NCBI RefSeq assembly: GCF_014644415.1
Contig: NZ_BMKQ01000001.1
Coordinates: 2,865,217-2,929,216, forward strand
Direction: 5' to 3'
Source: Marmoricola endophyticus
GTDB taxonomy: Bacteria; Actinomycetota; Actinomycetes; Propionibacteriales; Nocardioidaceae
DNA: 64,000 nt
This document shows, piece by piece, positions 2,924-59,871 of this stretch. Below the pieces are notes generated by a model. The model searched no databases and was not told the origin of the DNA. It was given only the letters and a program-made list of their open reading frames with translations. The translations under genes were made by a program, and so were the position numbers. Numbering within the stretch: position 1 is the stretch's first letter; each line of letters begins with the position of its first letter.

Positions 2924-3080
2924 CCGCGAGACGTCGCGTACACGCGACGTCTCGCGGGGCCGGGTCGCGAGGCGGCCCGTACACGCGACGTCCCGCGGGG
3001 CCGGGTCGCGAGGCGGCCCGTACACGCGACGTCTCGCGGGGCCGGGTCGCGAGGCGGCCCGTACACGCGACGTCTCGCGG
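2924..3080. repeat. Palindrome plus tandem 41-bp repeat between convergent genes
   Basis: A perfect 34-bp inverted repeat (16-bp arms, 2-bp centre) at 2924-2957 is followed by a 41-bp unit repeated in tandem: 2941-2981, 2982-3022, 3023-3063 and a partial copy 3064-3080. The copies differ at one base. Each unit contains CGCGACGTCTCGCG and a second short hairpin (GGGCCG...CGGCCC). It sits between the ABC-F gene and the convergent MarR gene, so a bidirectional terminator is plausible; there is no T-tract. Confidence 0.85.
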
Positions 3081-10873: not shown

Positions 10874-11195
10874 GGTCTCGACGTCCTCCCTCGCTGGCGC
10901 TCGGTCGGGCTCGACCACCGGTGGTCGAGCAGCGAGCGTCAGCGAGCGCGTCGAGACCTGGCGAAGTCTGGCGGGTCGGGGCCTCGACGTCCCTTCGTCG
11001 CTGCTCAGGACGTCGCATGCCGCGCTGGCGCTCGGTCAGGCTCGACCACCGGTGGTCGAGCAGCGAGCGTCAGCGAGCGTGTCGAGACCCGGCGACGTCT
11101 GGCGGGTCGGGGCCTCGACGTCCGCCCTCGCTGGCGCTCGGTCGGGCTCGACCACCGGTGGTCGAGCAGCGAGCGTCAGCGAGCGCGTCGAGACC
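10874..11195. repeat. Three copies of a long palindromic repeat (REP-like family A)
   Basis: Copies at about 10874-10958, 10981-11089 and 11112-11195. Each is an imperfect palindrome running from TCGACG at the left to CGTCGAGACC at the right, centred on a perfect 22-bp palindrome with CCACCGGTGG in the middle (10909-10930, 11040-11061, 11146-11167). Relatives lie at 28524-28640, 33646-33729 and 53182-53366. The 491-bp gap 10799-11289 has no credible gene; it holds the katG hairpin, these copies and the approach to the tRNA. Confidence 0.85.
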
Positions 11196-11289: not shown

Positions 11290-11368
11290 TCCCCGGTTGG
11301 TCTGCCGGCAGGGCCCGCCTGACTTTGAATCAGGACAAGCGACGTAGGTTCGACTCCTACCCGGGGAG
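11290..11368 (+). tRNA. tRNA-Gln (anticodon TTG), atypical
   Basis: A 7-bp acceptor stem (TCCCCGG with CCGGGGA), anticodon arm CCTGA-CTTTGAA-TCAGG and T arm GTAGG-TTCGACT-CCTAC are all perfect. Anticodon is TTG at 11325-11327, reading CAA. The D arm is unusual: GGTC/GGCC stem with a 9-nt loop lacking A14, two unpaired bases before the anticodon stem, and a 9-nt variable region. CCA is not encoded. It may be a divergent, mobile or decayed tRNA rather than the main tRNA-Gln. Confidence 0.7.
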
Positions 11369-28663: not shown

Positions 28664-29584
28664 GTGGCCAGTCCCTTCGTCGAGGTCGCGGTCGACGACC
28701 GCGTCGTCAAGGTGACCAACCCGGACCGCGTCTACTTCCCGGCGCGGGGGGAGACCAAGCTCGACCTGGTGGAGTACTACCTCGCCGTCGGCGACGGGAT
28801 CGTCAACGCGCTGCGGGAGCGGCCGTGCATGATGCACCGCTTCCCGACCGGCGTCACCGGGGAGAAGGTGCACCAGAAGCGGCTGCCCGGAGGAGCACCG
28901 GACTGGGTCGAGACCGTCGAGGTCTTCTTCCCGCGCTGGAAGCGCACCGCCGACGAGCTCTGCGTGACCGAGCGGGCGCAGGTGATCTGGGCGGTGCAGA
29001 TGTCGACCGTGGAGCTGCACCCGTGGAACAGCCGCCGCGACCACGTCGAGCAGCCGGACGAGTGGCGCATCGACCTCGACCCGGGCGAGACGTGCCCGTG
29101 GTCCCGGGTGCAGCGGGTCGCCGGGGTGGTGCACGAGGTGCTCGACGAGCTGGGAGCGGTCGGCTGGCCGAAGACGTCGGGCGGGACCGGGCTGCACGTC
29201 TACGTACGGGTCCCGCCCGCGCACGGCTTCGCCGACGTACGACGTGCCGCGCTGGCCTTCGCTCGCGAGGTCGAGCGGCGCGCGCCCGACGACGTGACGA
29301 CGACCTGGTGGCGCAAGGACCGCGACCCCTCGAAGCTCTTCATCGACTACAACCAGAACGCGCGCGACCACACGATCGCGGCGGCGTACTCCGTGCGCGG
29401 CAACCCGATCGGCACCGTCTCCACCCCCGTCCGCTGGGACGAGGTGGACGACTGCGAGCCCGACGACTTCACGATCGCCAGCGTTCCCGGACGGTACGCC
29501 GCCCTCGGCGACCTGCACGCCGGCATCGACGACGCGGTCTTCGACCTCGCTCCGCTGCTGGAGTGGGCCGACCGCGACGGGTAG
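28664..29584 (+). CDS. LigD-type polymerase/primase domain protein, stand-alone
   Basis: A 306-residue archaeo-eukaryotic primase-fold polymerase like the PolDom of LigD used in non-homologous end joining. VTNPDRVYFPARGETKLDLVEYY opens it; WRIDLDPGETCPW holds the catalytic Asp pair, STVELHPW and SGGTGLHVYVRVPP complete the nucleotide site, and SKLFIDYNQNARDHT closes it. Neither the ligase nor the nuclease domain is present and no ku gene is in the window. The TAG stop is the first base triplet of a palindromic 59-bp element. Confidence 0.92.
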   Translation: MASPFVEVAVDDRVVKVTNPDRVYFPARGETKLDLVEYYLAVGDGIVNALRERPCMMHRFPTGVTGEKVHQKRLPGGAPDWVETVEVFFPRWKRTADELCVTERAQVIWAVQMSTVELHPWNSRRDHVEQPDEWRIDLDPGETCPWSRVQRVAGVVHEVLDELGAVGWPKTSGGTGLHVYVRVPPAHGFADVRRAALAFAREVERRAPDDVTTTWWRKDRDPSKLFIDYNQNARDHTIAAAYSVRGNPIGTVSTPVRWDEVDDCEPDDFTIASVPGRYAALGDLHAGIDDAVFDLAPLLEWADRDG

Positions 29585-29642
29585 TCCAGGACGTTCTCGT
29601 GGCCGATCGGCCGTTTCGGCCGCGAGAACGTCAGGGACTACC
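29580..29642. repeat. Family B palindromic element, copy 1 (59-bp core 29582-29640)
   Basis: TAGTCCAGGACGTTCTCG (29582-29599) and CGAGAACGTCAGGGACTA (29623-29640) pair except for an internal AG/AG mismatch two bases wide; flanking GG/CC extend the stem. The centre holds GGCCGATCGGCCG-type inverted sequence. The left tip is the stop codon of the LigD-type gene, the right tip that of gtrA. Confidence 0.85.
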
Positions 29643-30045
29643 GACCCGGCGGGAAGATCACCCGGCTGCCCAGGAACGACAGCGGGGCCGTGACGAGGAT
29701 GACGCCGCCGGAGAGGTGGCGCGGCAGCCCCAGGGCCAGCGCGATCTGCAGGGCGAGCAGGCCGACGAGGAAGACGGCGACGTACAGCGCGCCGAACTTC
29801 ACCGCCCTCGAGCCCGTCAGCCGGGCCTTGAAGACCACCTTGCTGATCAACCAGGTCGCGGTGACCAGCCCGACCGCATAGGCGATGACGTACGCCGCCC
29901 GCGGGTCGATCACCGTCGCCAGGCCCGAGGTCAGGCCGGCGGTGAGCAGCGCGTTGCCCGCGCCGGCGACGCCGAAGCGCAGCAGCTGACCCAGTGCGCG
30001 CCGCTGGGCGGGGGAGACGAGGGGTCGCTGCGGCACAGCCCGCAA
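29638..30045 (-). CDS. GtrA family membrane protein
   Basis: A 135-residue protein with four transmembrane segments (about 22-42, 48-68, 82-102, 108-128). LLRFGVAGAGNALLTAGL opens the GtrA domain and KFGALYVAVFLVGLLAL is typical of its third segment. GtrA-like proteins are thought to flip or hand over polyprenol-linked sugars for wall glycan synthesis. Its TAG stop comes from the right tip of the 59-bp element. No partner glycosyltransferase adjoins it. Confidence 0.82.
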   Translation of the reverse strand: MRAVPQRPLVSPAQRRALGQLLRFGVAGAGNALLTAGLTSGLATVIDPRAAYVIAYAVGLVTATWLISKVVFKARLTGSRAVKFGALYVAVFLVGLLALQIALALGLPRHLSGGVILVTAPLSFLGSRVIFPPGR

Positions 30046-35327: not shown

Positions 35328-35785
35328 GCACTCCCGTCCTGCGCCCGGCCAACATCTCCGACGCGCCGGCGCTGGTCGAGCTCTGGGCGCGGGCGGGGGA
35401 GAACCGTGCGCGACCCACGGACCGTGACGACCTCGTCGTACGACTCCTCGAGCGCGACCCGGACGCGGTGATCCTGGCCGAGGTCGACGGCCGCCTCGTC
35501 GGCACGGTCGTCGCCGTCTGGGACGGCTGGCGCGCCCACCTCTACCGCCTCGCCGTCGACCCCGACCTGCGCGGGCAGGGGATCGCACGGCGCCTGCTCG
35601 ACGCCGCGGAGGAACGGCTGCGCGCCCTCGGAGCCGAGCGGATCGACGCGATGGTGCTCGACGACAACGAGGCGGGCCGGGCGCTGTGGTCGGCGGCCGG
35701 CTTCGCGCCGCAGCCCGACTGGTCACGCTGGGTGAAGCCGGTGGCCGGCGACCCACCGCGCCGCGGGCGACGTTGCGACCCCTGA
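35324..35785 (+). CDS. GNAT acetyltransferase
   Basis: A 153-residue GCN5-related N-acetyltransferase. [26 protein letters not shown] (about 70-95) holds the acetyl-CoA pyrophosphate loop (RGQGIA), followed by [13 protein letters not shown]. Coupled to guaA by a GTGA overlap. Its last residues and stop codon are encoded by the left arm of a 49-bp palindrome, which may have replaced the original C-terminus. The substrate is unknown. Confidence 0.85.
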
Positions 35786-35814
35786 CCGCCCACACGAGGG
35801 GCGCGAACGTCGCC
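35766..35814. repeat. Family C palindromic element, copy 1 (49 bp)
   Basis: Left arm GGCGACGTTGCGACCCCT (35766-35783) and right arm AGGGGCGCGAACGTCGCC (35797-35814) pair except for a four-base internal mismatch. The stop codon of the GNAT gene (35783-35785) starts at the end of the left arm. It matches copy 2 in length and tips. Confidence 0.8.
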
Positions 35815-35873: not shown

Positions 35874-36906
35874 GTGCAACGAACCGTCGGACCGTTCAGC
35901 CACAGTGTCGTGGTGCCGGTCAGGGTCGCCGCTGACGGCAGCGTCGGGCCCTCGGCGAAGGCCGTGCGCGGCCCGGGCTGGCGGCGCACGAGTCGAGGAC
36001 TCTACGTGCGGTCCACGACCGAGCGGTCGCCCGAGCAACGAGCTGTCGAGGCGTCCGTGCTCGTGCCGGGCGGCGGTGCGCTCACCGGCTGGGCCGCGCT
36101 CCGGTGGTACGGCGGGCGCTGGTTCGACGGCACCACAGACGGCGGCCGAACCGAGACTCCGGTCAGCGTTTCCGGGTGCCTGCCTGCGGCCGCAGCGGGG
36201 CATCACGGTCTGCCGGACGTGGCTGCGCCCCGACGTACGACGGTCTGCGCCTCACGGCCCCGGCGCTCGCGGCCGCGTTCGCCGTACGTCGGCCAGCGTC
36301 GCTGGTGGAGGGCGTCGTGGCTGCGGACATGGTGGCCTTCTCGAACCTCGCCTCGATCGAGGAGCTGGTCGCCGCTCTGGACGACCGTCCCGGGGCCAGG
36401 GCAACGCGCAGGCGAGTCGCGCGCTCGCTCTGGCCCACGAGAACTCGTGGTCGCCGATGGAGACCCGGCTGCGGCTGGTCTGGCGGCTGGTCGCCGGGCT
36501 GCCCCCGCTCTCGGTCAACGCGCCGGTCTTCGACCTCGACGGCCGTCACCTCGGCACGCCGGACCTGCTCGACGTCGAGGCCGGGTTGGCCGTCGAGCAC
36601 GACGGCGCCGAGCACCACGGCGGCACACGTCGGCTCGTGGACAGCCGGCGGGAGGACGGGCTGCGCGAGGCAGGGCTGTCGTACCTCACGGTCCTGGGTG
36701 CCGAGCTGCACGACCACGCGCGACTCGCCGAGCGTCTCCGCCGTGCGCGGACCCGAGCGATGGCGGCGCGCCCGTCACCGTGCTGGACCGCCGAGCCGCC
36801 AGCGGGGTGGGTGCACCTCGACAGCGTCGCCAGCCGGCGACGTTCGCGCCCCTGGCCGGACCGTCGAGGGGCAGGAACGTCGCCGTACGTCTCATCGGCC
36901 CGGTGA
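35874..36906 (+). pseudogene. DUF559-like (AbiEi-type N-terminus) protein, frameshifted
   Basis: Homologous-looking protein segments lie in three frames in order: frame of 35874 to about 36170 (RTSRGLYVRSTT...LTGWAALRWYGG), a short stretch in the frame of base 36178 (RPQRGITVCRTWLRPD), the frame of 36104 from about 36235 to 36420 (APTYDGLRLTAPALAAAFAV...IEELVAALD) and back to the former frame from about 36425 (AHENSWSPMETRLRLVWRL...DLLDVEAGLAVEHDGAEHHGG). At least three frameshifts are needed, so the gene is dead or the sequence has errors. The C-terminal half resembles the DUF559/Vsr-like endonuclease fold. Copies of a 49-bp palindrome lie on each side, the second inside its extended end. 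Confidence 0.75.
36836..36884. repeat. Family C palindromic element, copy 2 (49 bp)
   Basis: Left arm GGCGACGTTCGCGCCCCT (36836-36853) and right arm AGGGGCAGGAACGTCGCC (36867-36884). It equals copy 1 in length and tips with a different loop, and lies 8 bp before the stop of the convergent acyl-CoA dehydrogenase. Confidence 0.85.
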
Positions 36907-59808: not shown

Positions 59809-59871
59809 GGTAGTCCAGGACGAATCTGTCGTCCCGTGGCGCTCTCAGCGACGACAACGTCAGGGACTACC
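59809..59871. repeat. Family B palindromic element, copy 2 (59-bp core 59811-59869)
   Basis: TAGTCCAGGACG at the left and CGTCAGGGACTA at the right are identical to copy 1 at 29.6 kb; the 59-bp length is also identical and the same AG/AG mismatch recurs. The centre is different (CTGTCGTC/GACGACAA-type stem). Confidence 0.85.

Follow-up and report, generated by a model that had tools for sequence, protein, structure and literature searches.

The closest described counterpart of the DNA reported here is the pairing of repetitive extragenic palindromic (REP) sequences with REP-associated tyrosine transposases (RAYTs), including the composite forms called REPINs and bacterial interspersed mosaic elements (BIMEs). 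In REP/RAYT systems as described, the RAYT gene lies between two inverted palindromes, co-evolves with them, evolves faster than its neighbours and is tracked in its presence by palindrome abundance (PMC2817692), and cognate palindromes are dispersed at the 3' ends of genes (PMC3733652; see also PMC3116915 for the comparison). We describe an arrangement of similar plan in a window of 64,000 nucleotides from the actinobacterium Marmoricola endophyticus (NZ_BMKQ01000001.1, positions 2,865,217 to 2,929,216), starting from a 63-bp palindromic element at 29580-29642 that separates a LigD primase-polymerase gene from a gtrA-like gene. Our best reading is of a counterpart of REP/RAYT with another enzyme in charge: the 63-bp elements would be scattered, non-autonomous kin of the palindromes flanking a "master" gene, whose AbiEi-like/Vsr-type product would drive both their placement and their rewriting; we assign this a probability of roughly 0.68. 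REP units are palindromes of 20-40 bp with GTAG or CGTC at one end; here many copies have GTAG at each end and CGTC lies inside, in units of 59-63 bp at near-fixed spacing. The Y1 (HUH) tyrosine transposase PF01797 was found in none of the 24 genomes of the genus, with five of 14 control genomes positive. Because the Y1 transposase is absent from all 24, the system is not itself a member of REP/RAYT.

A sequence-only reading of the window had described two palindromes of the same 59-bp length that share an AG/AG mismatch and differ in their centres. Both lie where it placed them; 59 bp is the distance from TAGTCC to GGACTA, and the symmetric unit extends 2 bp further at either end. Outer tips are GGTAGTCCAGGACG and CGTCAGGGACTACC in both copies, the layout of each is GGTAGTCC-AG-GACG...CGTC-AG-GGACTACC, and the centres are unrelated; the left arm of the second copy (GACGAATCTG) is atypical within this genome. 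The pattern exceeds chance by a wide margin: scanning the window for the tips with up to two mismatches gave 32 matches where 13.3 were expected, the four exact ones being the tips of these two elements. Genome-wide, the tip-spacer-tip search that had been proposed recovers eight copies with exact tips at both ends and 13 with a looser pattern (TAGTCCNNGAC, 32-42 bases, GTCNNGGACTA), the reversed-pattern control giving 0 in both cases. A family confined to two copies, at sites identical in all relatives, is contradicted by these 13 copies and by the lack of the element at the end of ligD in all 11 relatives read.

Beyond this genome, the loose tip pattern is present in 9 of the 24 genus genomes (control 0 in all 24). 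The core GACGTT-N31-AACGTC occurs 21 times in M. endophyticus; in one genome from each of three further genera in the family the counts are 44, 42 and 22, and the control was 0 in these four genomes. A scan of named genomes, which permitted lengths of 57-59 only, gave at least 118 loci, and among the matches listed every title names Nocardioides, Marmoricola, Pimelobacter or Nocardioidaceae. Three loci with a single tip each (L013, L025, L026) were left out of the analysis. With 54-64 bp allowed, 45 of 53 elements from four genomes measured 59 bp, six 60 bp and two 58 bp. The early description of a cassette of near-constant size, its tips conserved and its centre hypervariable, lying mostly at gene ends, holds. 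With each species carrying its own version, matched to the palindromes around one fast-changing nuclease gene, the scattered copies suggest selfish DNA of a poorly known type that comes to rest at the ends of genes.

At C1:1766175-1767363 lies a full element, in which a 335-aa gene sits between the same outer tips; the genes on its two sides, for a pstB-like ABC transporter ATPase and a PHO4 phosphate transporter, both terminate on the TAG of those tips. The product of the 335-aa gene is predicted to combine an AbiEi-like portion with a nuclease fold of the Vsr/I-Bth0305I type, an assignment based on a VIA-align Z for which mitoribosomal chains likewise attain 9.3. With the same protein as query, Foldseek returned nothing at E 0.001, a sequence search of the PDB gave no credible match, and Pfam and NCBIfam assigned no name (PF18741 at E 0.17 only); DUF559, DUF2726 and MTES_1575 each match weakly in 3 of 20 of its relatives. 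Our literature search, outside which lay preprints and most subscription papers, found no link between DUF559 or AbiEi proteins and flanking palindromes. Homing endonucleases of the I-Bth0305I/Vsr-like kind would share the predicted nuclease fold, but here palindromes stand on both sides of the gene and are also dispersed alone, the protein has an AbiEi-like N-terminal part, and no intron or intein was seen in the M. endophyticus full element. Unlike the AbiEi antitoxins of type IV toxin-antitoxin systems, that element holds one gene with an additional nuclease part, and no AbiEii partner there.

Of 296 genomes sampled across the class, 183 encode a relative of the protein, and 82 of 114 genera are represented; some of these relatives have quite different flanking palindromes. 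As with RAYTs, the gene is flanked by palindromes of the dispersed type, a matching pair being found on both sides at 34 of 60 gene loci. The gene is present at the pstB site in several species, and in four of them the flanking DNA is 78-98% identical and the protein 49-68%, a further likeness to RAYTs, which co-evolve with their palindromes and outpace their neighbours. Related genes, or a site, at L081, L080, L305 and L365 bear shorter CGGCAGTTTCACCGG- or GGTTTCCCAGG-type palindromes in place of the 59-bp kind, and other Nocardioides hold closely spaced palindrome pairs (L105 7336/7424, L159 6277/6399, L171 821/930).

These elements could be ordinary miniature inverted-repeat transposable elements (MITEs), mobilised by an unrelated transposase encoded at another place in the genome, the nuclease gene being a passenger. 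Like MITEs they are short, non-autonomous and built of inverted repeats. The copies are dispersed, two 152-bp elements (L009, G000:C1:1628705-1628856; L010, 1713412-1713563), each made of two palindromes in inverted order around a short middle, resemble a gene-less full element, and our transposase search covered Y1 alone. Nevertheless, in several genera the palindromes on the two sides of the gene match each other but differ from one version of the gene to the next, and the solitary palindromes ("solos") track the arms of the gene. MITEs also differ from the present elements, which have a hypervariable centre, no clear target duplication in the four empty sites aligned in full and no DDE transposase shown for the system. 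We therefore consider the passenger explanation distinctly improbable.

Arm sequence differs from species to species, and solos agree in theirs with the gene-flanking palindromes of the same genome. Compared with 15 arm sets, the own arms were strictly best for 65 of 89 solos, against 5.9 by chance and a maximum of 37 over 10,000 permutations; this set is incomplete, with one solo from G014, five each from G013 and G011 and, for the named genomes, those among the loci listed. As in REP/RAYT, gene presence and palindrome abundance coincide: with a cut-off of at least 359 bits chosen post hoc and a pattern limited to these tips, the gene was matched in 8 of 8 genomes with at least six elements (gene-flanking ones counted) and in 0 of 16 others, of which 15 had no element by the tip pattern and one had a single element.

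Sites shared between genomes show that interiors change in place. Over a wider set of 20 orthologous occupied pairs (eight solo and 12 at the gene, which are not independent; 61 one-flank pairs were excluded), arm identity averaged 0.56, compared with 0.81 among own-genome copies; all 20 fell below the mean of own-genome copies and 19 below the means of both genomes. Identity of the centres was 0.355, that of random pairs 0.327. The closely related genomes G009 and G010 both carry an element at eight solo sites, five of which were recognised only from the counterpart site. At all seven shared sites with master-type arms, each copy is nearer its own genome's arms, and the paired interiors are 0.54-0.60 identical in six cases and 0.74 in one (unmatched pairs: mean 0.59, maximum 0.81, n = 112), and the flanks of three rewritten pairs are 92-96% identical up to the tips or to about 20 bases from them. 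The eighth pair (L237/L361), with arms like those of neither master, has retained 0.86 identity, which is the outcome that master-dependent rewriting predicts. This foreign arm type (TAGTCCCTGAC..CGCCCC) is present in both genomes, at L237/L361 and L252, and is conserved between them at one site.

Comparison of sites in relatives, another check proposed at the outset, revealed presence and absence between close relatives. Sixteen sites were compared between the two genomes of the G009/G010 pair: five are occupied in the other genome, eight are without an element of this kind (L268 possibly keeps a degenerate arm, and L365 holds another kind of palindrome) and three were unclassed (L238, L243, L252). 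The four empty sites aligned in full are short intergenic stretches. The empty G009 site L260, set against L241, carries an element (L223) in the more distant G003, so that either loss occurs too or there were two gains.

These comparisons bear on the possibility that the palindromes are immobile binding sites through which the AbiEi-like nuclease serves a host role, such as chromosome organisation or self-marking, with selection keeping the arms matched to the protein. Near-fixed spacing, half-site-like arms and a master at the same chromosomal site in several species would all suit such a role. It is hard to reconcile, however, with presence and absence among close relatives, with the ending of ligD on an element, or with whole interiors that changed beside such similar flanks, which point mutation would hardly achieve; we judge it very unlikely.

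Placement is mostly at gene ends. Of 149 solos, 120 received a class from a crude gene caller: 57 lie between convergent genes, 57 between co-directional genes and six between divergent genes, and 114 are downstream of at least one gene; the remainder lie inside called frames (20) or at frame edges (nine). Baseline junctions (n = 595) comprised 146 convergent, 331 co-directional and 118 divergent. At 171 gene-end stops, the element supplies the TAG in 32, and a TGA within the tip serves in four. At 29580-29642 the left TAG closes the LigD-type gene and the right TAG closes gtrA, as the sequence-only reading had it. The end of ligD was located in all 24 genomes, and neither TAGTCC nor GGACTA appears within 300 bases of it in the 11 relatives read; their LigD proteins all extend 9-16 residues further, and the sequence beyond differs here. 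Since ligD stops on the element's TAG and its relatives run on, the stop came with an insertion or rearrangement that removed the ligD tail.

A position at gene ends, with stable stems (fold z-scores, computed for single-stranded DNA, of -9.7 and -7.5 for the first window copy and -4.1 and -3.4 for the second), would be expected of intrinsic bidirectional terminators selected there, their likeness within a genome reflecting a preferred terminator sequence. The convergent excess (57 of 120 against 146 of 595) and divergent deficit (6 of 120 against 118 of 595) agree with this. A T-run is absent from the sequence flanking the stem at 29580-29642, however, where a terminator scan covering loops of 3-8 called none. 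Moreover, the arms match the flanks of a nuclease gene, the ligD of relatives ends at this site without the element, and at most of positions 13-23 pairing within an element is about equal to pairing across elements of the same genome, so that the constraint is largely one of genome-wide sequence. We regard selected terminators as unlikely, and termination of transcription may be a side effect of the elements. The proposal of a mobile or gene-conversion-spread terminator thus divides: presence/absence and homogenisation within genomes favour its first half, and the terminator role is unsupported, there being no T-run behind the stem and 57 of the 120 classed copies lying between co-directional genes. 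The tighter relation is with the nuclease gene.

Pairing was also considered as evidence for a selected stem and rejected: the two arms of one element complement each other to about the same degree as they do arms taken from other elements of that genome, and a surplus is clear only at positions 7, 8, 17 and 20 (modest at 17 and 20, the exceptions within 13-23), with no consistent pairing above control at the central positions 24-36. For this reason the arms resemble a pair of inverted half-sites for recognition, set a fixed distance apart, more than they do a stem under selection in each copy. The palindromes flanking the M. endophyticus gene carry CT in the outer arm and AG in the inner arm ahead of GACGTT, and the AG/AG mismatch of nine of the 13 genome copies (four have the matching CT/AG) is the same asymmetry. 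We infer that solos descend from a gene-flanking palindrome. An integron attC reading was set aside, the GTT...AAC order being reversed here.

In our preferred reading of master-driven placement and rewriting, the protein would be active, recognising two inverted arms of about 24 bp at a fixed distance, binding there and cutting at the arms or near gene ends. A repair or copying route would then install a palindrome with the currently recognised arms, so that elements land at 3' gene ends and older ones are continually rewritten. Rewriting with the current arms would therefore make a genome's copies track those of the master, a form of concerted evolution; the centre, unrecognised and constrained chiefly in length, would be free to diverge. 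It is possible, and we offer this tentatively, that the system represents a separate class of mobile DNA in which the AbiEi-like/Vsr-type nuclease drives "palindrome homing", cutting palindromes of its own type, or empty places at gene ends, so that they come to bear its current arms. Under palindrome homing, palindromes whose arms are no longer recognised would drift, as the sole foreign-arm pair suggests, and a fast chase between nuclease and arms would leave the same chromosomal sites rewritten in each species.

Several observations weigh against master-driven placement and rewriting. Cleavage and movement are both inferred. The control for rewriting is one site (L237/L361), a rewritten pair (L239/L364) retains much shared centre, and the four empty-site alignments gave no clear target duplication or target sequence. 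By the finder used, 26 of 60 gene loci are without matching palindromes on both sides, the M. endophyticus full element being counted among them because its right palindrome is imperfect. The own master was not the strict best for 24 of 89 solos: in G011 the arms of the two flanked genes are matched by none of five solos, and in G003 seven of 14 are best with their own arms and six others are nearer those of its relative G009. Across 12 masters, arm distance and protein distance did not correlate (Mantel r 0.12, p 0.19). The 359-bit cut-off was set after the fact, with a profile (A1) derived from proteins to which that tip had led; weaker relatives of the gene are present in 12 of the 16 genomes below it, some with palindromes invisible to the pattern, and in G016 a flanked gene has arms (TAGTCCGGCAC) that escape the pattern. 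The G011 solos (L255-L257, L347, L348, L292, L342) are possibly relics of a lost or altered master.

If master-driven placement and rewriting is correct, the lifestyle of a resident master enzyme with dispersed palindromes has evolved twice, the second time around an unrelated nuclease. The model would also assign a function to an actinobacterial protein family that is widespread and poorly annotated, account for species-specific palindromes at gene ends, and provide natural nuclease/arm pairs for the study of changing DNA recognition. The changed interiors at the same sites in two close relatives make bacterial concerted evolution directly testable.

Features of the window, including a decayed relative of the flanked nuclease gene between family A palindromes, are listed in Table 1. 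Family A-like cores occur elsewhere in the genome at G000:C1:1268361 and 3052578. The neighbours of the second family B element appear to end a few bases beyond it, its TAGs not being their stops.

Table 1. Coordinates of palindromic elements and associated genes, numbered within the window.
Feature	Position	Strand	Remarks
Solo palindromic element, family B (main finding)	29580..29642	.	tips GGTAGTCC, GACGTT in arms, centre variable
TAG of left tip, stop of LigD primase-polymerase gene	29582..29584	+	
TAG of right tip, stop of gtrA	29638..29640	-	
LigD primase-polymerase domain gene, ended by element	28676..29584	+	PF21686, E 1.9e-92; start provisional
gtrA-like gene, ended by element	29638..30045	-	PF04138, E 1.3e-8
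Second family B element	59809..59871	.	63 bp, centre unlike first copy
Left palindrome, family A	35766..35814	.	core GACGTT-N31-AACGTC at 35769-35811
Decayed relative of flanked nuclease gene	35877..36849	+	three pieces: 35877-36167, 36233-36415, 36400-36849
Right palindrome, family A	36835..36885	.	core at 36839-36881

An Rfam scan of the window gave tRNA only. Directly before the tRNA at 11290-11368 stand three identical, perfect 22-bp palindromes (GCTCGACCACCGGTGGTCGAGC; 10909-11167), spaced 109 and 84 bp apart, and overlapping inverted repeats with units resembling CGCGAGACGTCGCG cluster at 2924-3080.
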